DNA of 37,016 nt from an uncultured Bacteroidales bacterium (lineage in GTDB: Bacteria > Bacteroidota > Bacteroidia > Bacteroidales > Paludibacteraceae). Below, piece after piece: positions 26,098-36,903 of the stretch. The first letter of the stretch is position 1. Each line of letters starts with the position of its first letter. Where the stretch lies: NCBI GenBank assembly GCA_900319645.1, contig ONPG01000022.1:1-37016 (forward strand), given 5' to 3'. Both the position numbers and the translations under genes were made by a program. Under the pieces are notes generated by a model. The model was given only the letters and a program-made list of their open reading frames with translations, made no database searches and was not told where the DNA came from.

Positions 26098-26190
26098 TTC
26101 GACTTTCGACTTTCGACTTTCGTCCCTTGTCTTTCGACTTTCGACTTTCGACCCTTGTCTTTCGACTTTCGACTTTCGACTTTCGACTTT
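26098..26190 (-). repeat. TTTCGAC heptamer array between murC and ftsQ
   Basis: About ten TTTCGAC units are interrupted by two TCCCTTGTC/ACCCTTGTC words, giving a higher-order period. The same pattern occurs inside murC at 26888-26973. It fills the whole 108-bp spacer. Confidence 0.92.
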
Positions 26191-26200
26191 TGACTAAGGG

Positions 26201-27727
26201 TTATTTCAATGCTTCCGTCATCGGTTCCACGAGGCGGTCGATGTCTCCGGCGCCGATGGTCATCACCACGACTGGCGTGTCGGCGGAGGAAAGACGGTCT
26301 TTGATAGTAGCGACCAAGTCGGCTTTCTCCACTACGGACACCTTGGTTTGCGGCTGGATTCTCTCGGCCAACATCCCGCTCGTCACGCCGGCTATCGGCA
26401 GTTCGCGTGCCGGATAGATCGGCAACAGGATACACTCGTCCAAAGTAGCCAATACACGTGCGAATCCTTCCGCAAAATCGCGTGTACGGGTATAGAGATG
26501 CGGCTGAAAAACACCTATCAGCCGGTGGTCGGGATAGAGTTTGCGCACGGAGTGGATAGAGGTGGCTATCTCGTCGGGGTGGTGCGCGTAATCGTCGATA
26601 TACACCACTTTCTCGTTCTGCACATGGATATTAAACCGTCTCAGCACGCCCCGGAAAGAGCCCATTGCCTGACGCAGCTGTGCCGCCGTTTCCTCGCTCG
26701 TTAGCCGTAGTTCGTAACGCTTGATAAGGTAAGCCACCGCCATCGCCGCCACGGCGTTCTCGATATTCACCCACACCGGCACACCCAAACGGATATCCGT
26801 GATCACCTCTTCCGGCGTGTGAAAATCAAAGACAATCGTCCCCTGCCCCACGCGGATACGCTCCGCATAGAAATCCGGTTCTTCGTCCTTCGTCCCTTGT
26901 CTTTCGACTTTCGACTTTCGACTTTCTACTTTCGTCCCTTGTCTTTCGACTTTCGACTTTCGACTTTCGACTACACCGTAGGTGTACATCCTTACTCCGT
27001 CTTTCAGACGCGGCGTGATTGGCAGCCCGTGTTTGATCACCAAAGCACCGGTGATGAGTTCTGTGTATTGCTCAAAGGCTTCGCGATAGGCTTCGGGAGT
27101 GCCGTAGATATCCAGATGGTCGGGATCCACCGCCGTGATGATGGACATATAGGGTGTCAGCCTGTGGAACGAACGGTCGTATTCGTCGGCCTCGACGACG
27201 ACATAATCACTCTCTTTGTCAATCAGCACATTCGTGCCGTAGTTCATACTTATTCCGCCCAAAAAAGCATTCACACCATCGCCAAAGCCAACGCCAACGC
27301 CAGCCATCAGGTGCGCCAGCATAGTCGAGGTGGTTGTCTTGCCGTGCGTACCGGCTACGCAGAGGGCTTTCTTGGTGCGGGTCACCAAGCCTAACACTTC
27401 CGAGCGTTTGCGGATGTCAAATCCCTGCTCGCGCAGCCAGGTATAGAGCACGCTGTCCTCCGGCACGGCAGGAGTACGGACCACGAGCGTGTTCCGGGCG
27501 GACCATCCTATGCTTTGCAGCATATCCGGAGCATCTGCGTAGGTGATCTGAATCCCCTCTTCCTCCAGTTGCCGTGTCAGCGCAGAAGGTGTCCGGTCGT
27601 AACCGCACACCCGGACAGGATGAACGTCCGTTATCCCTTGCGCGTGGAAATAACGTGCGAGAGCACTCATTCCGATGCCGCCGATGCCTAAGAAAAAGAT
27701 GTTTTCTATCTGATGTTTTTCCAACAT
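26201..27727 (-). CDS. murC: UDP-N-acetylmuramate-L-alanine ligase MurC
   Basis: The enzyme adds L-alanine to UDP-MurNAc in the cytoplasm, the first peptide step of peptidoglycan synthesis. The N-terminal Rossmann motif is FFLGIGGIGMSALAR, the ATP site is AGTHGKTTTS near residues 125-134, and the central DEYDRSF and AVDPDHLDIYG match the family. The C-terminal domain has DDYAHHPDEI. At 508 residues it is longer than usual (about 450-470). The excess is mainly a repeat-derived segment at residues about 252-283 (VESRKSKVERQGTK twice) and a short Gly/Val-rich segment at about 142-151. Both are in frame and lie at loops, so the enzyme may still work. It is first in the murC-ftsQ-ftsA-ftsZ order, with a promoter immediately upstream. 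Confidence 0.95.
   Translation of the reverse strand: MLEKHQIENIFFLGIGGIGMSALARYFHAQGITDVHPVRVCGYDRTPSALTRQLEEEGIQITYADAPDMLQSIGWSARNTLVVRTPAVPEDSVLYTWLREQGFDIRKRSEVLGLVTRTKKALCVAGTHGKTTTSTMLAHLMAGVGVGFGDGVNAFLGGISMNYGTNVLIDKESDYVVVEADEYDRSFHRLTPYMSIITAVDPDHLDIYGTPEAYREAFEQYTELITGALVIKHGLPITPRLKDGVRMYTYGVVESRKSKVERQGTKVESRKSKVERQGTKDEEPDFYAERIRVGQGTIVFDFHTPEEVITDIRLGVPVWVNIENAVAAMAVAYLIKRYELRLTSEETAAQLRQAMGSFRGVLRRFNIHVQNEKVVYIDDYAHHPDEIATSIHSVRKLYPDHRLIGVFQPHLYTRTRDFAEGFARVLATLDECILLPIYPARELPIAGVTSGMLAERIQPQTKVSVVEKADLVATIKDRLSSADTPVVVMTIGAGDIDRLVEPMTEALK
26888..26973 (-). repeat. Duplicated 42-bp heptamer-derived insertion inside murC
   Basis: TTTCGAC-type units with TCCCTTGTC breaks, as in the murC-ftsQ spacer, lie in frame in murC. 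They encode two 14-residue copies of VESRKSKVERQGTK (residues 253-266 and 267-280). The 42-bp period equals six heptamers and fourteen codons. Confidence 0.93.
27272..27307 (-). repeat. GCCAAC 6-mer array inside murC
   Basis: Units GCCAAA, GCCAAC, GCCAAC, GCCAGC on the plus strand encode the Gly/Val-rich AGVGVGFGDGV just after the MurC ATP-binding helix, where most MurC proteins have no such segment. Confidence 0.75.
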
Positions 27728-27968: not shown

Positions 27969-28089
27969 CAGGCGGCAAAGTGTTTTGCCGCACTGAGGAA
28001 ATGGAAAAGTCCAAAGAAAATATATGTAATTCGCTGATTGTGTGCAATCTGCGAATGCGAATGGGGGGGGTAAAAATGAACCTCTTCGC

Positions 28090-28431
28090 ATGCTTGTCGC
28101 CGCGGTAGCGGCAGTGATCCTCTGCGCTTGCGCACCTAAACCCGATTCTCCGTCTTCTTTTTTGAGTGAATACGACTCTGTTTTTCAGAGCCGTGATAGT
28201 TTATTATGGTACGCGTCGCGTGCGTATATGTGCGACGATGCCAAGGGTCAGTTTGTGACCGGAGCGGCGCCTTATCTCCAGCGTGAGGGGAAGGTGCCCG
28301 ACTGGATATATACCTTGCCTCTTGATCAGGCAGACACGATGCTGATGATGTCGGCGCAGCAGGGCTTTGAGCCGGCTGTGGCGTTTATCGGCGTGCTCGT
28401 GGAGGAAGGGAAATGGGAACACGAGTGGTGA
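28090..28431 (+). CDS. Small predicted lipoprotein, unknown function
   Basis: A 113-residue protein starting MLVAAVAAVILCACAPKPDS, a short signal peptide with a lipobox-like Cys near residue 14. The mature part (SEYDSVFQSRDSLLWYASRA...PDWIYTLPLDQADTML) matches nothing recognised. The ATG at 28090 is used; the frame is open back to a GTG at 28042. A G8 tract lies at 28063-28070. A tenfold-codon ORF (ATG 28076) overlaps out of frame. If one G were added, an ATG at 28001 would read into this protein, so the start could vary. It lies 41 bp before hsdM. Confidence 0.6.
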   Translation: MLVAAVAAVILCACAPKPDSPSSFLSEYDSVFQSRDSLLWYASRAYMCDDAKGQFVTGAAPYLQREGKVPDWIYTLPLDQADTMLMMSAQQGFEPAVAFIGVLVEEGKWEHEW

Positions 28432-28439
28432 CGGGGAAA

Positions 28440-28467
28440 CTGAAAGGTGAAAATTGAAAATTGAAAA
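28440..28467 (+). repeat. TTGAAAA heptamer array before hsdM
   Basis: Units CTGAAAG, GTGAAAA, TTGAAAA and TTGAAAA run at 7-bp spacing up to the hsdM start region. Confidence 0.88.
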
Positions 28468-28472
28468 GTAAT

Positions 28473-29918
28473 ATGAAATACGAATCTACCTTTAATGCCA
28501 TTGATGGTATTCTCCGCAACGAGGCGGGCTGTAGTAACGAACTGGATTATATCGAGCAAACTTCGTGGTTGCTCTTCCTTAAATATTTAGATGATTTGGA
28601 GAGTTCGCGTGAGTTGGAAGCACAGTTAAACGGCAAGGAGTACAAACGTCTGATTACGGGCTTCTATCGTTGGTCGGCTTGGGCTGCTCCCAAGACGAAA
28701 GACGGAGAGCCGGATGTTATCAATGCGATGACCGGCGACGATCTGGTGGATTTTGTCAATGCTAAACTTTTCCCTACACTCAAGCAATTCAAGAATAGTG
28801 CTCCTTCGGCAGATACGCTTGAGTACAAGATTGGCGAGATTTTCTCCGAGCTTCGCAACAAGATCAACAGCGGCTACAATCTGCGCGAGATTATCAACAA
28901 GATAGACACGCTGCATTTCCAGTCTGCAGACGACCAACACGAAATGACGGTATTGTACGAGGACAAAATCCGCCGAATGGGCAATGCCGGTCGTAATGGT
29001 GGCGAGTACTACACCCCTCGTCCGCTTATCCGCTCAATCGTGCAAGTGATCAATCCGCGTATCGGCGAGAGTGTTTATGACCCTGCGTGCGGTTCGGCAG
29101 GTTTTCTGTGTGAAGCGTTTAACTATATGTCGGAGCAAGTGAAATCGGTAGCGGATAGCGATACGTTGCAGAAAAGCACGTTTTATGGCAAAGAGAAGAA
29201 AGGTTTGCCGTATATCATTGCTACGATGAATATGATTTTCCATGGCGTGGCAGCGCCCAATATCGTGAGGGGCAACACCTTGACAGAGAACCTGAGCGGT
29301 ATAATGGAGAAAGACCGCAAGAACGTTATTCTTGCCAATCCGCCTTTTGGCGGGAGCGAGCGTGCGGAGGTACAGCAGAACTTCGACATCAAGACCTCCG
29401 AAACGGCTTATATGTTTATGCAGCATTTCATCAAGATGCTTAAGGTGAATGGTCGTGCGGGTATTGTCATCAAGAACACTTTCCTCAGTAACGGCGACGC
29501 GGCAGCGGTTCGTCGCAAACTCTTGGAGGAGTGCAACGTACACACGATTTTGGATTTGCCTTCGGGCGTGTTCACGGGTGCGGGCGTTAAGACCGTAGTA
29601 CTCTTCTTTACTAAAGGGACACCGACGCAGAAGATTTGGTACTACCAACTCAACCTCCCGCGCACACTCGGAAAGACCAACCCGCTCTCCGATGCCGATT
29701 TGGAAGAGTTCGTACGCCTGCAAAAGACCCAAGCCATCTCCGAAAACTCTTGGCTGCTTGATGTCGCTTCTCTCGGAGAGGACTGCGACCTCTCCGTCAA
29801 GAACCCCAACAAACCCGAAATCATCGACGAGCGCACTCCGGCACAAATCCTCGATACCATTGCTTCTCTTAACGCCGACTCCGCTACCCTCATCAACCAA
29901 ATCCGCGAACTGCTATGA
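28473..29918 (+). CDS. hsdM: Type I restriction-modification methyltransferase subunit HsdM
   Basis: A 481-residue N6-adenine DNA methyltransferase. The N-terminal helical domain (YESTFNAIDGILRNEAG...WLLFLKYLDDLE) is typical of HsdM. The AdoMet motif is DPACGSAGFL at residues 203-212, and the catalytic motif is NPPFGG at 289-294. The ATG at 28473 is preferred over a TTG at 28461 inside the heptamer array. The stop overlaps hsdS by an ATGA, so M and S are coupled. Confidence 0.95.
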   Translation: MKYESTFNAIDGILRNEAGCSNELDYIEQTSWLLFLKYLDDLESSRELEAQLNGKEYKRLITGFYRWSAWAAPKTKDGEPDVINAMTGDDLVDFVNAKLFPTLKQFKNSAPSADTLEYKIGEIFSELRNKINSGYNLREIINKIDTLHFQSADDQHEMTVLYEDKIRRMGNAGRNGGEYYTPRPLIRSIVQVINPRIGESVYDPACGSAGFLCEAFNYMSEQVKSVADSDTLQKSTFYGKEKKGLPYIIATMNMIFHGVAAPNIVRGNTLTENLSGIMEKDRKNVILANPPFGGSERAEVQQNFDIKTSETAYMFMQHFIKMLKVNGRAGIVIKNTFLSNGDAAAVRRKLLEECNVHTILDLPSGVFTGAGVKTVVLFFTKGTPTQKIWYYQLNLPRTLGKTNPLSDADLEEFVRLQKTQAISENSWLLDVASLGEDCDLSVKNPNKPEIIDERTPAQILDTIASLNADSATLINQIRELL

Positions 29919-31042
29919 GAAACGATTGGAAAATAAAAGGGTTTGAAGACTGCCTACAAAAGGTAAAAAAACAAAAGGCTGTAAAATCTAAATGTTATTT
30001 AGATAATGGCTTGTATCCTATTGTATCCCAGGAGAGCGATTTAATATCAGGTTATACAAATGAAGAGAAAATTCTCTACAAGCATGAGAAACCTGTAATT
30101 ATATTTGGTGACCACACAAAGAATATCAAATATGTAGATTTTGATTTTGTGGTTGGGGCTGATGGAGTACATATATTATACGTAAACGATGATATTTTAC
30201 CTAAGTTTTTTTATTATGAGCTATGCTCTATTCAATTAAGAAATTTAGGATACGCACGGCACTATAAGTTGCTAAAGGAAAAAGAGATAGGTTATCCGAA
30301 TTTATCCGAGCAAGAGCGCATAGTATCTCTTTTAGACACACAATTTGCGAAGATTGATGCCCTGAAAGCCAATGCCGCTTACCAGCTCCAAGCCGCCAAA
30401 GACCTCTTCCAAGCCGCCCTCAAACAACTCCTCACACCTAAAGAGGGATGGGATGAAAAAACATTAGGTAGTATTTGTATTTCTATAAAGGATGGAGATT
30501 GGATAGAGAAAAAGGATCAATCTCCTACTGGAATAAGACTACTACAAACCGGTAATATAGGTGTTGGAATATATAAAGACAAATCGGATAGCCCGCATTA
30601 TATTAGTTTGGATACATTTAATCGATTACATTGCGAAGAGGTTTTCGCTGGTGATATTCTATTATCAAGGCTCCCTGAGCCTGTCGGGCGAGCATGTTTA
30701 GTTCCTAAAATGGAAGGGAGATTTATTACAGCTGTTGACTGCTCTATTATAAAAGTACACACAGAAAAGGTTACTCCTGAATATTTAATCTACTATACAC
30801 AAACGAACGCATATTTCAAAAGTATATCATCTTTGTGCACAGGTACGACAAGGCAACGAATATCACGAAAGAAACTTGAAGAAGTTTCCATCTCCTTCCC
30901 CTCTCTCCCTGAGCAAGAGCGCATCGCAGCGCGCCTTGACGAGATTTCTGAAAAGGTGAAAGCCTTGCAAAGCAACTACGACCAGACAATAACCCTTTGC
31001 AATGACCTCAAACAGGCATTGCTCAAATCAATATTCGGATAA
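29915..31042 (+). CDS. hsdS: Type I restriction-modification specificity subunit HsdS
   Basis: The 375-residue subunit recognises the bipartite target. The first target-recognition domain is at about residues 1-128. A conserved coiled-coil linker follows (LSEQERIVSLLDTQFAKIDA and AAKDLFQAALKQLL), then the second recognition domain (about 183-325), and a second conserved helix block (LPEQERIAARLDEISEKVKA to the end). Both recognition domains are clearly richer in A+T than the linker blocks and neighbouring genes, which suggests domain exchange. hsdR begins in the last base of the stop codon. Confidence 0.93.
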   Translation: MRNDWKIKGFEDCLQKVKKQKAVKSKCYLDNGLYPIVSQESDLISGYTNEEKILYKHEKPVIIFGDHTKNIKYVDFDFVVGADGVHILYVNDDILPKFFYYELCSIQLRNLGYARHYKLLKEKEIGYPNLSEQERIVSLLDTQFAKIDALKANAAYQLQAAKDLFQAALKQLLTPKEGWDEKTLGSICISIKDGDWIEKKDQSPTGIRLLQTGNIGVGIYKDKSDSPHYISLDTFNRLHCEEVFAGDILLSRLPEPVGRACLVPKMEGRFITAVDCSIIKVHTEKVTPEYLIYYTQTNAYFKSISSLCTGTTRQRISRKKLEEVSISFPSLPEQERIAARLDEISEKVKALQSNYDQTITLCNDLKQALLKSIFG

Positions 31043-33537
31043 TGGACGAGAGTACAACACGGCGAAAGAAAATCGACCCTGCATTATACGCAGTAGGTTG
31101 GGAAAGTGTGCCGGGCAGCGAGATTCTGAACGAACAGCGCGCGTATCTCATTGCTCCCGGTCGCGTAGAACGTATCAAGGAGAACCGCCACCCCAAGAAA
31201 GTGGATTATATACTGGAGTACAAAGGCAACAAACTGGCGGTAATAGAAGCCAAATCGGACGAATTGGATGTGGCTATCGGTATAGACCAAGCGAAGTTAT
31301 ACGCCCAAATGCTCCAGATACGTTACGCGTATTCCACTAACGGCGACGAGATCTATTTCATTGATATGGGTGTACAAGACGCGTACGGCAATTATATTAT
31401 TCCGTCCAAGGAGCACCCTGTGGATCATTTCCCGTCTCCGCAGGAGTTGTGGCAAATGACCTATCCCGAGACAGACGAGTGGCGTGACCGGTTCAATCTG
31501 GAGCCTTTCAACCGAGGAGGCGGCAGGGAGCCGCGTTATTATCAGGTAAACGCAGTAAAGAACGTGCTGACAGCTGTAGCCAAAGAGCAGAAACGTATTC
31601 TGCTGACAATGGCAACGGGTACGGGCAAGACCTACGTGGCGTTCCAAATATGCTGGAAACTGTTTCAGACCAATTGGAACAAACGCAAAGACGGCAAGAA
31701 GCCTCGTATTTTGTTTATTGCAGACAGGAACGTGTTGGCTAATCAGGCATCGAACGACTTTGAGCAGTTTGACGAGGACGCAATGGTGCGTATCACTCCC
31801 GAATGGCTACACAAGCATCACAACGAAGTGCCCACGGCGCGCCACTTGTATTTTACCATCTTCCAAACTTTTATGGGCGAAGGTGCGAACGGACAACCCT
31901 ATTACAAGCAGTACCCGTCGGATTTCTTCGATTTCATTATTATCGACGAGTGCCACCGCGGCGGAGCGAACGACGAGAGCCAATGGAGGGAGTTGATGGA
32001 GTATTTCACAGATGCTTACCAGTTAGGAATGACCGCAACACCCAAGCGACAGGAGAACGCCAACACGTACCGCTATTTTGGAGAGCCGGTCTATTCCTAT
32101 TCGCTCAAACAAGGAATAGATGACGGTTATCTGACGCCGTTCCGTGTCTGTATCTCGGAAAGCAATATTGACGAATATCGCTACGATCCTAACGACGATG
32201 TGGAGGGCGATATCGATCCCGACAAGACCTATACGGAAGCCGATTTCTACAACGGCAATATCGAGATCCGCAAACGCGATGAGCACCGCGTGATAGAGTT
32301 GCTAAAGCAGATCAACCCCAACGACAAGACGATTATCTTCTGCGCCACACAAGCCCACGCGGCTATTATCTGTAGTCTGGTCAATCAGCACAAGTCCAAT
32401 CCCGCATCAAACTATTGCATGCGTGTGACCGCGGCTGACGGCAAAGAGGGAGACGACACGCTTCGGTTATTCCAGAACAACGAGCGTTTGCTACCTACTA
32501 TCTTGACCACCTCGCAGAAACTCTCAACCGGTGTGGACGCGCGCAATGTGCGAAATATCGTGTTGATGCGTCCTATTAACAATATGGTGGAGTTCAAGCA
32601 GATTATTGGCAGGGGTACGCGCCTGTTTGACGACAAATACTATTTTACTATCTACGATTTCGTAGGAGCAAACAAGAATTTCAAGGACGCAGAGTGGGAC
32701 GGCGATCCGTATTGCCCTGTTTGCGGCAATTATCCGTGTACATGCCACAAACACGAACCATGCCCCGAATGTGGCAAATATCCTTGCGAGTGCGACAAGG
32801 GGCCTACGCCTCCTCCAGAGCCGTGTCCCGTTTGCGGACACCTGCCGTGTACGTGTGAACACCCGCAGAAAAAGAAAATCCGTGTCCGCTTGTCTCCGCA
32901 ACGCGAGTTGATGCTACAAACCGACTGGACGGAGAAATTCTATTACGGCGACAAACTGATTACGTTAGATGAGTTTGTCAAATTGCTGTTCGGCAAACTG
33001 CCCTTGTTCTTCAACAGTCCGGACAATCTGCGCAAACAATGGGAGCACCCGGATACACGCCAATCGCTTTTGGAGCACCTTGACCACGAGGGATTCCCCG
33101 AGGAGAAGTTGCTAATGATCCGCCGCGTAATGGGGCGCGAGAACTGCGATTTGTTCGATATTTTGGAGTTTCTTGCCTACAACACCACACCAATAGAACG
33201 AGCCAAACGCGTGGAGTTTGTGAAGAACGAGTATTATCTGGTGCAAACCACGGCACAAAAGGTGTTCCTCGATTTCCTAATGAAGCAGTATATCGAGAAC
33301 GGCTACAAGGAGTTTACGATGGACAACCTGTCCAAACTGGTAAATATGAAATACGGTACGTTGCAAGACGCCTTGAGCGCATTAAGTATGACCATTCCGC
33401 AGATTCGCGAGAGCTATCTGGAGTTTCAACACCAACTCTATAGACCTTTAGGTCAACAGGGCGGCGTGACGCTTAATATTATTGGCGGAAACGTGACGTA
33501 TAACGACAATAGTCAGACAATAAATGTAAAAAATTAA
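31042..33537 (+). CDS. hsdR: Type I restriction endonuclease subunit HsdR
   Basis: The 831-residue motor-nuclease translocates and cuts unmodified DNA. The nuclease motif has D55, E69-A-K71 and a Q83-x3-Y87. The helicase shows Walker A MATGTGKT at 190-197, DECH at 302-305, GMTATPKR and the late motif QIIGRGTRL. Between helicase and C-terminal domain lies an unusual insert at 558-605: three Cys knuckles (CPVCGNYPCTC, CPECGKYPCEC, CPVCGHLPCTC) with twelve cysteines. This could bind zinc. The C-terminus ends with VTYNDNSQTINVKN. With hsdM and hsdS the system appears intact. Confidence 0.94.
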   Translation: MDESTTRRKKIDPALYAVGWESVPGSEILNEQRAYLIAPGRVERIKENRHPKKVDYILEYKGNKLAVIEAKSDELDVAIGIDQAKLYAQMLQIRYAYSTNGDEIYFIDMGVQDAYGNYIIPSKEHPVDHFPSPQELWQMTYPETDEWRDRFNLEPFNRGGGREPRYYQVNAVKNVLTAVAKEQKRILLTMATGTGKTYVAFQICWKLFQTNWNKRKDGKKPRILFIADRNVLANQASNDFEQFDEDAMVRITPEWLHKHHNEVPTARHLYFTIFQTFMGEGANGQPYYKQYPSDFFDFIIIDECHRGGANDESQWRELMEYFTDAYQLGMTATPKRQENANTYRYFGEPVYSYSLKQGIDDGYLTPFRVCISESNIDEYRYDPNDDVEGDIDPDKTYTEADFYNGNIEIRKRDEHRVIELLKQINPNDKTIIFCATQAHAAIICSLVNQHKSNPASNYCMRVTAADGKEGDDTLRLFQNNERLLPTILTTSQKLSTGVDARNVRNIVLMRPINNMVEFKQIIGRGTRLFDDKYYFTIYDFVGANKNFKDAEWDGDPYCPVCGNYPCTCHKHEPCPECGKYPCECDKGPTPPPEPCPVCGHLPCTCEHPQKKKIRVRLSPQRELMLQTDWTEKFYYGDKLITLDEFVKLLFGKLPLFFNSPDNLRKQWEHPDTRQSLLEHLDHEGFPEEKLLMIRRVMGRENCDLFDILEFLAYNTTPIERAKRVEFVKNEYYLVQTTAQKVFLDFLMKQYIENGYKEFTMDNLSKLVNMKYGTLQDALSALSMTIPQIRESYLEFQHQLYRPLGQQGGVTLNIIGGNVTYNDNSQTINVKN

Positions 33538-33576: not shown

Positions 33577-33692
33577 CACCCGTAATCGTCAGCTCTTAGA
33601 CGTTAAACTGGAGTTTCAAGGCATATTCCTTTACAGACAAATCGGCAAATTTAATCGTAAAGAAGAGAAATATGTCCCTTGTATCTGTGCCT

Positions 33693-33769
33693 GGCGCAGT
33701 TAAGAGGGATCTCTTTACGGGTTTTGCCGAACCAGTCTGTAGTCTCTCTTATCTGCGCCTTTTATTTTT
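33693..33769 (+). terminator. Attenuator-like long hairpin just before a start codon
   Basis: GGCGCAG (33693-33699) pairs with CTGCGCC (33753-33759). After one mismatch nine more pairs follow (33701-33709 with 33743-33751, one G-T). The loop holds a small GGTT-N6-AACC hairpin. T4AT5 follows at 33760-33769, and the ATG of the next gene is only 2 bp later. With the promoter 117 bp upstream it could be an attenuator or the end of a roughly 185-nt RNA. CTCTTA at 33593-33598 could pair with TAAGAG at 33701-33706 as an antiterminator. Confidence 0.72.
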
Positions 33770-33771
33770 CT

Positions 33772-34185
33772 ATGAGCAGACCTACTTTTATTCATTCAAC
33801 TGTAGTCTATCACGACCACAGCAAAGAGTTTCATATTGATGCCAATGGACGCGATTTGGCATCTATCATTCGTACGTGCCAAAGTGAAGATATCACAGAG
33901 GTACAAGCAGAGGAGAACGAACCTAAAACCGACTCGATGATCTTCACCCGCAAAGCCAAGCAAGAGAGCAAAGTGAATGTGATCCTGCAAGCGTTGCAAA
34001 AGTCCGTAGTAGGACGCAAAGACAAGACGCGCGCCTTTGTGCAGGAACTGCACGTTTGGCAGAAAGATGAATATATCGATGCCCATTTCAATGCCCGCGT
34101 TATGTACGACGAGTTGGGGAATATGTTGCCTCTTCCGTTTGGCTACGAAGTGTTCAAAAAGCATTATAACAACACGCGGTTCTAA
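33772..34185 (+). CDS. Unknown protein behind an attenuator-like leader
   Basis: A 137-residue basic protein starting MSRPTFIHSTVVYHDHSKEF. No domain was recognised. The C-terminal half (VVGRKDKTRAFVQELHVWQK...DELGNMLPLPFGYEVFKKHY) looks conserved and globular. The ATG at 33772 is used; upstream codons in the same frame run through the hairpin and are unlikely to be translated. There is no room for a ribosome-binding site other than the U-rich terminator tail. It lies between the restriction system and phage-like genes. Confidence 0.6.
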   Translation: MSRPTFIHSTVVYHDHSKEFHIDANGRDLASIIRTCQSEDITEVQAEENEPKTDSMIFTRKAKQESKVNVILQALQKSVVGRKDKTRAFVQELHVWQKDEYIDAHFNARVMYDELGNMLPLPFGYEVFKKHYNNTRF

Positions 34186-34384: not shown

Positions 34385-34891
34385 ATGTTACCGGAACAAC
34401 TTGTTCACCAACTGCGGCTGACGGACGGGACAATCGTACGGCTGTGCCCGACGACCAGACCGATCTACTGCTCCCGCGACGGGAGATTTTTCTCGCCCGT
34501 CAGGGCGGTACTGACGGACGACGGATGGGAGATGCGAGAACTCAAAGTGTATTGCCCCGGCGAGGGAACTCGCTATGAGAGATCACACTCCGATTATGCG
34601 AAGCTTAGCGGTAAAGCTGGCGTTACCTCTATAGCACATCACTTGATGTGGGAGACGTGGGTGGGTCCGAGGAAGAAAACCGACGCCAACGGCGTCAAAT
34701 GGGAGATCGACCATATCAACGGCGACACCCGGAACTGGAGCTTGGACAACCTCGAGGAGATCACAGCCGCGGAAAATTACCGTCGGAGAAAGATTCTCCA
34801 CCGCCTGCGCAAGGAAGGCAAAGACCCCACGCAGATGCCCATCGCCGAACTCAAACGCATTTTCAATTTATCAACAAACAAACAACTTTAA
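34385..34891 (+). CDS. HNH endonuclease, phage-type
   Basis: The 168-residue protein has the HNH core of phage and homing nucleases: AHHLMWETWVG near residue 85, WEIDHINGDTRNWSLDNLEEIT near 106-127, with D109-H110 and N122, then a basic tail. It is likely a DNA-nicking or cutting enzyme carried by a mobile element. The ATG at 34385 follows the structured leader. It lies 5 bp before the next gene, indicating an operon. Confidence 0.82.
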   Translation: MLPEQLVHQLRLTDGTIVRLCPTTRPIYCSRDGRFFSPVRAVLTDDGWEMRELKVYCPGEGTRYERSHSDYAKLSGKAGVTSIAHHLMWETWVGPRKKTDANGVKWEIDHINGDTRNWSLDNLEEITAAENYRRRKILHRLRKEGKDPTQMPIAELKRIFNLSTNKQL

Positions 34892-34896
34892 TCATT

Positions 34897-35367
34897 ATGA
34901 AAGCTTTAGAATTGACTACGGCGTTTGTGAACGCCAATGCAGCCGTATTAAACAACGCGAACGCGTTAGTACAAACCCACGCCTTGCGCATGCTCATCGC
35001 AGCCTGCGAGGATCGCATCACCGAACTGAGCGACGAAGCAATTGTGCAAGCATCCGCTATTCTGACGAAACAAGGTCGCTCACAAGGCTCTTTTGAGCTG
35101 GAGACCCTTGCCTATGGCGAACATCAGGTGCTTAAGTTCCAGCTCCAGATAACGGAGAAATACGACCTCAGCAAGTCGAATAAATACACGGAGGAGGACT
35201 GTCAGAACTGGCGCGGATTGAAACGCGAGCAGGACAACCTCAAACGGATGTCAGCAGCTATCACAAAACAGCTGACCGGTATCGTGGAAGGCTACGTAGC
35301 ACGTCATCCGGGTACTAAGCCCGACGAAATCAAAGCCGTTATCAAAGCCATCAAGGATTCGGAATAG
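34897..35367 (+). CDS. Unknown protein of the phage-like module
   Basis: A 156-residue helical protein beginning MKALELTTAFVNANAAVLNN. Long amphipathic helices with heptad character (for example LKREQDNLKRMSAAITKQLT) suggest a coiled coil or a DNA-associated protein. No family was recognised. The ATG at 34897 follows the HNH stop by 5 bp; a longer frame from 34648 only overlaps the HNH gene. Confidence 0.65.
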   Translation: MKALELTTAFVNANAAVLNNANALVQTHALRMLIAACEDRITELSDEAIVQASAILTKQGRSQGSFELETLAYGEHQVLKFQLQITEKYDLSKSNKYTEEDCQNWRGLKREQDNLKRMSAAITKQLTGIVEGYVARHPGTKPDEIKAVIKAIKDSE

Positions 35368-35380
35368 TGAAAAGAAGACG

Positions 35381-35446
35381 GCTTTGGCTTTGGCGTTGGC
35401 TTTGGCGGCGCTTATTAAACTGAAAACTGAAAACTGAAAACTGAAA
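35381..35446 (+). repeat. Composite TTTGGC 6-mer / ACTGAAA 7-mer array
   Basis: About five 6-bp TTTGGC/GTTGGC units (35381-35409) are followed by four exact ACTGAAA units (35419-35446), just before the replication-type gene. Confidence 0.9.
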
Positions 35447-35453
35447 GTAAAAA

Positions 35454-36254
35454 GTGAAACTCCTGTTGGAAGATAAGATTGCCAAGGAGCATCAACTGAA
35501 TGCGAACGAGGCCTGTATATACGCGTGCATTGCAAAATGTACGCGTGCAGGTCGCGGTTGGTACGGCAACTACGCTGCTCTTGCCGACGCTATGCCTTTT
35601 GAGATCAATAGGATGACAGCGAGCAGAGCGGTACAGAAACTACTAACCTTGGGGCTTATAGAACGGAGAGAAGATAACCACCTTTTTTCTGCACAAATTG
35701 TTCACGACGATGCACAAAATGTTCACGATGATGCACAAAATGTGCACGGCGATGCACAAAATGTGCACGATGATGCACAAAATGTGCAAAAAGATGCACA
35801 AATTGTTCTCCCCCCTATAACCCCCCTAAATAAAAGAGTTATGAACGAAAAAAAGAAAGAAGAAGAGGGAATGACGCACGTGCCTGCGCACGATGCGCAC
35901 GAGAACCCCGCACCCCAATTTAAGGAATTTATGGAATTGTTCAGAAACACCAACAACGGCTTCTATCCGGACACGGAGAACACCGCGTATTTCCTTTGGC
36001 AGCGGAGCAACCCGATCAAACAATCGGCGATGATAGCCGCCCTGCGTGACCCGAAAGGCTTCCGCAAGCCCCGTCCGGATTGGTTCATCAGCGACTTCCC
36101 CGACCCTCAGCCGCAGTTCCTCGACGGCATCGCGCAAGACAACGCCCGGGCGGAGGGGCTCGAGTTGGTGCAAGTGAGTTACAACAACCGCTTCCTCATC
36201 TGCACGCGGACCGAAGCCGACCGCTTCCAACTGAAGGTGATACGGAAATGGTAG
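35454..36254 (+). CDS. Replication-initiator-like protein with internal iterons
   Basis: A 266-residue protein starting at GTG 35454 (MKLLLEDKIAKEHQLNANEA). Residues about 13-74 form a winged helix-turn-helix (YGNYAALADAMPFEINRMTA then SRAVQKLLTLGLIERRE), as in phage and plasmid replication initiators. Residues 80-118 are a heptad-like run, AQNVHDD repeated about 5.5 times, encoded by 21-bp DNA repeats. A basic-acidic linker (NEKKKEEEG) follows, then a C-terminal domain (FMELFRNTNNGFYPDTENTA to KPRPDWFISDFPDPQ) that may contact helicase or loader. The lambda O-like domain order, N-terminal DNA binding and C-terminal partner domain around internal iterons, is the reason for the call. Family homology was not confirmed. 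Confidence 0.68.
   Translation: MKLLLEDKIAKEHQLNANEACIYACIAKCTRAGRGWYGNYAALADAMPFEINRMTASRAVQKLLTLGLIERREDNHLFSAQIVHDDAQNVHDDAQNVHGDAQNVHDDAQNVQKDAQIVLPPITPLNKRVMNEKKKEEEGMTHVPAHDAHENPAPQFKEFMELFRNTNNGFYPDTENTAYFLWQRSNPIKQSAMIAALRDPKGFRKPRPDWFISDFPDPQPQFLDGIAQDNARAEGLELVQVSYNNRFLICTRTEADRFQLKVIRKW
35691..35806 (+). repeat. Six 21-bp iterons inside the initiator gene
   Basis: GCACAAAATGT-type copies start at 35691, 35712, 35733, 35754, 35775 and 35796, exactly 21 bp apart (two helical turns). Copies 3-5 hold a palindrome GCACA-AAA-TGTGC. The spacing keeps the reading frame and yields a 7-residue protein repeat. The last copy is partial. Confidence 0.92.
35827..35870 (+). other. Purine-rich, AT-rich tract beside the iterons
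   Basis: Directly after the iterons and two C6 runs (35808-35826) is a tract of about 44 bases almost purely A and G with few T. Such strand-biased AT-rich sequence next to iterons is where DNA melts at the lambda origin. It encodes the linker NEKKKEEEG. Confidence 0.55.
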
Positions 36255-36260
36255 GGAAAA

Positions 36261-36325
36261 GACGATGGACAATGGACAATGGACGATGGACAAAAATGCT
36301 TTGGCGATGGCGTTGGCCGTTGGCT
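36261..36325 (+). repeat. Composite GGACAAT 7-mer / TTGGCG 6-mer element, copy B
   Basis: GACGATG, GACAATG, GACAATG, GACGATG, GACAAAA, then TTGGCG-type hexamers. It matches copy A (27822-27886) nearly base for base, in the same orientation. Confidence 0.92.
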
Positions 36326-36395
36326 TTATCAGCGGCGAGGAGTGTCTATATAATCTCCGGCATGGTATGTCGGAGCCCCCCCTCGGCTTAACAAG

Positions 36396-36526
36396 CGCCA
36401 ACGCCAAAGCCAATGCCAATGCCGAGCCTTTATCGAGCCAATATCGAGCCAATATCGGGATAGGGGTCTATTCGCAGTCTCTTCCACTCCGCATGGAGCC
36501 AATAGCCAATGCCAACGCCAAAGCCA
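36396..36526 (+). repeat. GCCAAY 6-mer arrays with ATCGAGCCAAT repeat
   Basis: GCCAAC/GCCAAA/GCCAAT hexamers occupy 36396-36425 and again 36505-36526. Between them ATCGAGCCAAT occurs twice in tandem. Nothing gene-like is seen between 36255 and 36543; an open frame there only reads the repeats (ANAKANANA). Confidence 0.85.
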
Positions 36527-36543
36527 TAAAAATCAACAAAATT

Positions 36544-36903
36544 ATGCAAATCGTTTTAACTACACAATGTATGCACATCGCCGGGTCGTTAGGAAAGGGC
36601 TTCGGCTACTCGATTCAGTTTCAAAACGGACAGTTTGTCAGCAAACGCAACTCCCGCGGATATGTACCGAACTACGGACACTACCGGTTTATCCTCGCCT
36701 GCGCGGAGCTTGCGATGCTCCAACTGCACATCAAGGATATCTCTGTCAGCCGGGAGGAACTGATGGAAGCCGCACGGGAAGCTTCGAGCGAGCTTAGAGA
36801 TAATCCCTACACGCTCATCTATTACCACATCCGGCAGGACACCGGCAGAGAGTTCTACCACGCACGGGATATCTTTTTCCTGCACAAACTCTATGAAAAC
36901 TAA
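36544..36903 (+). CDS. Unknown protein of the phage-like module
   Basis: A 119-residue protein starting MQIVLTTQCMHIAGSLGKGF. The sequence is not low complexity and has helices (FILACAELAMLQLHIKDI, SREELMEAAREASSELRDN), so it looks real. No family was recognised. The ATG at 36544 is chosen because the upstream open frame consists of repeat arrays. Confidence 0.6.
   Translation: MQIVLTTQCMHIAGSLGKGFGYSIQFQNGQFVSKRNSRGYVPNYGHYRFILACAELAMLQLHIKDISVSREELMEAAREASSELRDNPYTLIYYHIRQDTGREFYHARDIFFLHKLYEN

Follow-up and report, generated by a model that had tools for sequence, protein, structure and literature searches.

A probable lambda-O-like replication initiator gene with a putative internal origin in an island of an uncultured Bacteroidales bacterium

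Anatomy of the gene

The window analysed here is the complete 37,016 bp contig ONPG01000022.1 (contig C18 below) from the 2.64-Mb draft genome (84.2 % complete) of an uncultured Bacteroidales bacterium of the Paludibacteraceae. The contig terminates among the genes of a module that includes a gene for a 266 amino acid (aa) protein, which had been predicted from the letters alone to be a lambda O-like initiator with an origin inside its own coding sequence (the original prediction). Along this gene a helix-turn-helix domain, a disordered linker encoded by repeats (iterons), a twin C-tract, a purine/AT tract and a C-terminal domain (C-domain) follow one another. Its features are as follows:

35454-36254, + strand: initiator-like gene, 266 aa, GTG start (open reading frame (ORF) and profile matches)
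35454-35690, + strand: predicted N-terminal DNA-binding domain (N-domain), residues 1-79
35610-35648, + strand: predicted recognition helix, residues 53-65, in which residues 53, 54 and 57 (above all 54) vary with the iteron arms
35690-35704, + strand: iteron 1, TGCACAAATTGTTCA
35711-35725, + strand: iteron 2, TGCACAAAATGTTCA
35732-35746, + strand: iteron 3, TGCACAAAATGTGCA, perfect core
35753-35767, + strand: iteron 4, TGCACAAAATGTGCA, perfect core
35774-35788, + strand: iteron 5, TGCACAAAATGTGCA, perfect core
35795-35809, + strand: iteron 6, TGCACAAATTGTTCT, one mismatch to the pattern
35810-35828, + strand: twin C-tract box, CCCCCCTA-TAA-CCCCCCTA, which relatives retain even when it is read in a different frame
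35829-35876, + strand: purine-rich AT tract, candidate unwinding element
35841-35843, + strand: in-frame ATG (residue 130) that most close relatives share and from which the C-domain might be started internally
35913-36248, + strand: C-domain, residues 154-265, which also occurs alone in relatives

In the structure model the N-domain has helices at residues 4-12, 17-31, 40-46 and 53-65, so that the recognition helix begins at residue 53; the linker (residues 79-150) has a predicted local distance difference test score (pLDDT) below 50, and the C-domain (residues 154-265) is separate, with block means of 77-94. A separate model of the N-domain (mean pLDDT 71.8) agrees with the whole model. The original prediction called for a winged helix-turn-helix and a separate C-domain; the whole model shows the helices and the separate C-domain, but as its N-domain has no strand of three or more residues, it leaves the wing unmodelled.

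The six iterons are spaced 21, 21, 21, 21 and 21 bp apart in one reading frame (35690-35809), and Tandem Repeats Finder (TRF) places the array at 35690-35806 with a period of 21 and a score of 164. Number and spacing are as originally predicted, but the palindromic core GCACA-AAA-TGTGC is perfect in only three of the six, the others being imperfect (right arm TGTTC, centre AAA or AAT). The 15-mer TGCACAAAWTGTKCA, with at most one mismatch, has six matches in the draft genome, all of them at 35690-35809; the backward pattern, used as a control, has one. When the same peptide was recoded 1000 times using the codon usage of ten window genes, the synonymous-codon shuffles gave a palindromy of 3.40 of 6 pairs (sd 0.35) compared with 5.60 for the window iterons, a value that 0 of 1000 shuffles reached. 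This test took in 29 of the 32 rows of relatives compared (L027, L083 and L042 were left out; L numbers denote individual loci), and every one of the 29 loci was more palindromic than the mean of its shuffles, with 0/1000 shuffles reaching the observed value in 24 loci and 1-17/1000 in the other five; these loci are not independent, because many are close relatives. Beyond encoding a repeated peptide, the palindromes are signals in the DNA itself.

The twin C-tract box, which the original prediction did not mention, occurs in some form in 26 of the 32 rows; L033, L083, L050 and L059 have no match to the pattern, and L042 and L027 are doubtful. Its second C-run is read as ACC CCC CTA (T-P-L) in the window and in a second copy of the gene (below) and as CCC CCT (P-P) in most relatives, and the first C-run is read in a different frame in L081/L028. 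By this comparison the box, like the palindromes, is kept at the DNA level. The purine-rich AT tract that had been predicted to follow the iterons is indeed present: positions 35829-35876 have an AT fraction of 0.69 and a purine fraction of 0.85, and only 3 of 36,968 same-size windows, its own position counted in, are equally extreme.

The ATG at 35841 is a lead only, a possible internal start from which the C-domain could be made separately. Plasmids are known to make in-frame short Rep proteins from internal starts (excerpts of PMC6854812). As a side observation, the reading frame of L078/L079 is split just 5' of the conserved internal ATG, and those of L047 and L077 are broken within the C-domain.

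Recognition helix and iteron bases

A second copy of the gene lies at C20:48371-49147 of the same genome, inside a 333-kb contig. It is 85 % identical to the window gene and has ATG where the window has GTG; the first 53 residues are identical bar this start codon, and the helix differs at residues 54 (M/T) and 57 (S/F). In 30-bp bins the DNA identity between the two copies is 83-97 % over 35454-35603 and 87-100 % over 35814-36233, compared with 23-67 % over 35604-35813, where the lowest bin contains a 21-bp gap. Within the gene the second copy therefore differs chiefly over the recognition helix, wing region and repeats, and its iterons have the left arm GTGCA where the window has GCACA. Outside the gene, identity is low in the spacers 35424-35453 and 36234-36533 and in part of an HNH endonuclease gene (34554-34643, 40-47 %), there is a milder dip at 35034-35123, and similarity ends left of ~34284. 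From such comparisons, helix and iterons seem to behave as one specificity cassette, changing while the rest of the gene stays put.

Across the homologues the iterons have CA-N3-TG in common and vary at bases -4 to -7. Helix residues and iteron bases were compared in 34 homologues, nine of which were merged as repeated helices to leave 25 distinct helices with 13 majority half-sites. Duplicates (L002 = L004, L079 = L078 and L029 = L028) and loci with another core (L058, with CA-AAA-CG and another helix, and L082, L040, L038, L034, L030 and L062) were dropped beforehand. The last right half-site extends into the C-tract and was omitted except in L059, L081, L028, L042 and L050. N-domain matches that were not resolved are L130 (truncated), a contig-end fragment (G126:C18) and the weak matches L136-L140.

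Residue 54 tracks base -5 with a z of 6.97, the highest of 73 columns, and predicts it correctly in 21 of 25 leave-one-out trials; this bears out the expectation in the original prediction that homologues would keep differing iterons matched to their DNA-binding helices. Lysine at residue 54 goes with G at base -5 (L068, L033, L035, L027 and L083), glutamate or aspartate with C (L078, L080 and L075), and T, S, V, P or Q with T (L072, L004, L042, L070, L134, L067, L048, L028, L050 and L073). The lysine-G and acidic residue-C pairings are those expected from textbook contacts. Residue 53 tracks base -6 (z 4.04; leave-one-out 21/25, where the majority rate is 17). Prediction from the nearest neighbour by residues 53, 54 and 57 recovers 55.0 of 75 bases (0/1000 label shuffles; chance is about 30), compared with 30.8 for residues 1-49 (416/1000), 38.4 for residues 58-70 (28/1000) and 36.8 for residues 61-78 (55/1000). 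Residues 61-78 are nearer the iterons than the helix contacts are, yet they predict worse, so linkage alone does not easily explain the correlation.

The pairs extend to distant family members: when 11 distant entries were predicted from 14 close ones, the helix residues gave 24.0 of 33 bases, residues 1-49 gave 13.0, residues 61-78 gave 15.0, and random choice 13.5. Three homologues that came in late (L131, L134 and L042) fit the helix-based expectation, although their peptide repeats had been seen beforehand, so this was not a blind test. Site type and C-domain identity are uncorrelated (r 0.04) in the 16 close members whose C-domain is intact, the mean C-domain identity being 0.48 for 10 same-site pairs and 0.47 for 110 different-site pairs.

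Helix and half-site differ in 10 of 10 within-genome pairs. Incompatibility as the driver of this diversity was considered and set aside, as within genomes of the close group 0 of 9 pairs are the same, compared with 28 of 244 between genomes (P 0.33, not significant). The cassette could give islands that share a cell separate addresses, a suggestion that is not statistically supported. One draft genome (G141) has four copies (L064, L045, L046 and L048) with four helix/iteron types, on contigs that end in or near the gene.

Relatives and genomic setting

Which known proteins does the window protein resemble? Among the PHROG profiles for replication initiation, its sole match below E 0.01 is phrog_270 ('replication initiation protein', 1.7e-6), and in Pfam it has weak MarR/HTH matches only. 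Its family reaches further. Of 23 aligned homologues, 19 match phrog_270, 15 match phrog_428 (also 'replication initiation protein'), and 10 and 9, respectively, match the 'replication initiation O-like' profiles phrog_345 and phrog_678 (best 3.4e-9); the DnaD-like phrog_186 is matched by 9, and the Pfam families HTH_36 and DnaD_N by 12 (best 1e-5) and 7 (best 1.1e-5). Kinship of the N-domain to O-like phage initiators is thus supported by family members, while the window protein itself reaches phrog_270 only. No plasmid Rep family is among the Pfam matches shown. A sequence search of the Protein Data Bank (PDB) gave two matches, the better of which (E 0.02) aligned the repeat region with a splicing factor and was judged meaningless.

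The full protein has matches in 63 of 178 genomes of the same genus (E <= 0.001) and the N-domain profile in 37 of 178 (E <= 1e-4); in a sample of the family the full protein matches 43 of 300 genomes in 2 of 33 genera, and in a sample of the order the N-domain matches 3 of 393 genomes, all of the same genus. The 26 named relatives from the profile search are Paludibacteraceae or other Bacteroidales records, and where the record title names a host it is sheep, goat or roe deer. As a lone query the window protein found no close relative in phages, genome_contigs or viral_contigs, the profile search of IMG/VR found no homologue, and the relative L064 as query had no match in plasmids or phages. 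Five of the genomes compared have more than one copy of the gene.

Iteron copy number ranges from two sites (L134) to seven (L050), with at least three phased sites in nearly all relatives. Ten N-domain homologues of greater distance were scanned at periods 17-30; the best period is 21 in 10 of 10, and the repeats score 29-34 of 39 in eight (not L062 and L041) where shuffled maxima are 23-26. We also hand-picked 14 loci (L263-L276, ORFs of 108-170 aa) from the C-domain-only matches among the full-protein matches in the genus. Module genes lie alongside in 11 of these, with the HNH gene recognised in one. Their best repeat triples score 22-28 of 39, compared with 39/39 in the window; seven score 1-4 above the maximum of ten shuffles (23-26), partly in A- or AT-rich sequence, and L272 has just 121 bp of upstream sequence. 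We read all 14 as being without clear iterons, though a weak remnant is conceivable. The original prediction had named homologues lacking iterons as a refutation; homologues without clear iterons exist, but all those examined (the 14 loci) are C-domain-only.

The iteron core is also found in viral contigs, where at least 120 stretches (L142-L261) have three copies of CAAAWTG at intervals of 21 bp, each stretch being crossed by a stop-to-stop frame (fewer than 100 aa in 32 of 120). In 39 of these the core is read in a different frame, and the remainder includes plainly coiled-coil or structural proteins. Nine of ten hand-picked helix-bearing viral ORFs match replication-initiation, O-like or DnaD-like PHROGs at E <= 1e-5. 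The presence of the same 21-bp core in viral initiator ORFs means that in-gene 21-bp iterons are not special to the window island. For transfer of the helix rule to these ORFs, 74 of the 120 frames had no helix match and 9 were duplicates, which left 37 rows. A basic residue at the lysine position goes with G in 9 of 13 rows compared with 4 of 23 others (Fisher p 0.0035; the spurious L210 was dropped and R was added post hoc), and lysine alone, the sole basic residue in the training rule, in 4 of 7 compared with 9 of 29 (p 0.22).

The usual gene order around the initiator is c2 - HNH - small genes - initiator - c5 - c4 - c9 - c8 - c6 (DUF5675) - c23/c11 (c numbers denote gene clusters). The small genes are a WYL_2-domain gene (c3) or c7 and a zinc-ribbon-like gene (c14, below its cut-off); c8 reads as membrane-type, and several small neighbour genes match no family. 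The neighbours in the window are:

33679-34185, + strand: cluster c2 gene, left partner of the module
34385-34891, + strand: HNH endonuclease gene, the usual upstream neighbour
34897-35367, + strand: 156-aa gene of cluster c7, upstream neighbour
36544-36903, + strand: cluster c4 gene, downstream

Of 24 close-group copies, 16 lie within 2 kb of a contig end, probably because the copies share flanking sequence. To the left, between a small lipoprotein-like gene (28042-28431) and the module, genes at 28461-33537 read as a type I restriction-modification set, in whose place relatives have other genes. Many arrays of 7-bp units (TTCGACT, AAACTGA and GACAATG) lie between genes at 26098-26195, 35417-35446, 36261-36293 and elsewhere, two of them flanking the initiator gene, and another (26882-26972) is in frame within a gene that reads as murC.

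A putative in-gene origin and its alternatives

The best reading of the above, and one we consider likely on the sequence comparisons made here, is that the gene encodes a lambda-O-like replication initiator whose origin lies within it. The N-terminal winged-helix-type domain would bind each palindromic iteron in the middle of the gene, probably as a dimer; six bound sites in helical phase (21 bp being two turns and seven codons) would form a nucleoprotein complex; the adjacent purine/AT tract would open; and the C-domain would recruit replication proteins, the outcome being replication of the island.

Several observations weigh against this picture or against its recognition rule. Profile comparison with lambda O (hhalign) is colinear over the helix-turn-helix but not significant (prob 0.9 %, E 0.062); a structure search with the whole model gave no match at E <= 0.001, and the N-domain model compared with viral structures had a best E of 0.95, with a 'Replisome organizer' at rank 7 (E 3.0). 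No P/DnaC-type loader was recognised in the neighbour families scanned (others, such as c10, c18 and c19, were unscanned), and the C-domain has uses without iterons, as the C-domain-only relatives show. As for the rule, column 44 has a higher z for base -6 (4.47) than column 53, though its leave-one-out score of 17/25 equals the majority rate; the best column for base -4 is residue 54 (z 4.21) and not 57 (z 1.23), and for base -7 it is residue 71 (z 3.93). Methionine at residue 54 is a misfit: its partner is C in six entries (the window, L064, L065, L081, L059 and L131), whereas in L069/L066, a single entry, it is A. When prediction is confined to the 14 close entries, the helix has less of a lead (28.0 of 42 bases, compared with 22.3 for residues 61-78 and 15.8 for random choice); significance in these tests was by label shuffling, which is tree-free; and the full residue rule fails on unrelated viral initiators (10/23).

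The likeness to lambda is one of layout. As excerpts of PMC7466680 on ori-lambda and the O proteins of Shiga toxin (Stx) phages describe, lambda O is likewise an initiator with mid-gene iterons and an AT-rich tract, and excerpts of PMC6022878 place ori within gene O and report O complementation. The lambda iterons, however, are spaced 20, 24 and 23 bp apart in mixed frames, whereas those of the window are spaced exactly 21 bp in one frame; the window gene has in addition the twin C-tract box, and no P-like partner was recognised among the scanned neighbours. The O-like profile matches of family members, the in-gene iterons and the AT tract thus uphold the proposed lambda O likeness, while the direct profile comparison with lambda O falls short of significance. 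DnaD-like phage replisome organisers (phrog_186, DnaD_N and HTH_36) also have a helix-turn-helix N-domain and a role in phage replication, and some family members match them weakly; the window protein itself has no confident match. Lambdoid O proteins were reportedly studied as specificity determinants of replication by Furth and Yates in 1978. In the geminivirus Rep protein, as here, initiator residues track the iteron sequence; this rolling-circle Rep has another fold, and its iterons lie outside the gene.

The alternative that survives best, though we think it doubtful, is compatible with an initiator: the island would be a phage satellite, similar to a phage-inducible chromosomal island (PICI) or a PICI-like element (PLE), replicating once a helper has infected the cell and relying on a helper for packaging. 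An initiator with its own putative origin, the HNH gene, the putative restriction-modification cargo and the genomes with more than one copy would suit a satellite, and in excerpts of PMC8263062 the PLE RepA_N protein shows the same modular covariation with its origin, and its C-domain is conserved. Module swapping was inferred there, as we suggest for the window cassette, and its authors propose that a RepA-mimicking phage nuclease selected for the swaps. The PLEs described in those excerpts have two replicon groups and an intergenic origin, compared with 25 helix types, 13 majority half-sites and a putative origin in the gene here, and kinship of the two families was compared by profile scans only. 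Against a satellite stand the phage and IMG/VR searches, which gave no homologue, and the lack of a tyrosine integrase (PF00589) beside either copy or in the scanned neighbour families: this genome has them only on contigs C3, C30 and C32, with none on C18 or C20, although the search did not extend to serine recombinases and the window contig breaks off within the module. An iteron plasmid was considered and rejected, since the second copy lies within a 333-kb contig, L064 matched no plasmid, and the Pfam matches shown include no plasmid Rep.

It is improbable that the protein is an autoregulator which binds the in-gene repeats and blocks transcription of its own gene or operon, with no origin involved. 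The window protein's own MarR/HTH matches would fit such a role, a roadblock could act at the sites, given their position downstream of the start, and the correlation of helix and site argues for recognition and not for replication as such. Many members, however, match replication-initiation and O-like profiles, the sites lie between the domains beside the purine/AT tract and not at the gene start, and an array of three to seven phased sites would be a large one if it were an operator. Slightly less probable still is that the helix/iteron correlation arose by hitch-hiking, through recombination of neighbouring DNA and with no residue-to-base code. The helix and the iterons are within ~80 bp of each other, and the two copies differ across both as a block; residues 58-70 and 61-78 carry some signal, the latter also within the close group; but residues 61-78, though nearer the iterons, recover far fewer bases than the helix, distant homologues have the helix/site pairs of the close ones, and the pairings of K with G and of E/D with C are those that contact chemistry predicts. 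The exact tandem period and the varying copy number might suggest that the repeats only encode peptide or arose by slippage, without any role as DNA. This is hardly credible: in 29 of 29 loci the palindromy exceeds what the peptide accounts for, the arms change with the helix and follow it far better than they follow the neighbouring residues, and clear repeats are absent from all 14 loci without the N-domain; the original prediction had named slippage as a second refutation, and these results oppose it.

In-gene iterons were already known from lambda; the new part is the covariation of residues and bases together with the helix/iteron cassette. The top-ranked full-text results of our literature searches, which left subscription literature mostly outside, included none that describes a residue-to-base code for phage initiators whose origin lies in the gene, and the top-ranked full-text results held no description of this ruminant island family of Bacteroidales. 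Beyond the initiator reading itself, we hold it about an even bet that each such gene is a self-addressed replicon, whose key (residues 53, 54 and 57) and lock (its own iterons) are exchanged as a cassette, and that the recognition code and compatibility groups of this initiator class can be read from sequence; the code of the whole class might be readable because many phage initiators carry a like 21-bp in-frame core. Origin specificity must normally be determined by experiment. In this family the gene itself contains the sites that its product probably binds, and does so in many natural variants, so specificity and replicon compatibility may become predictable and testable, and the gene offers a handle on an island family in the Bacteroidales of ruminants.
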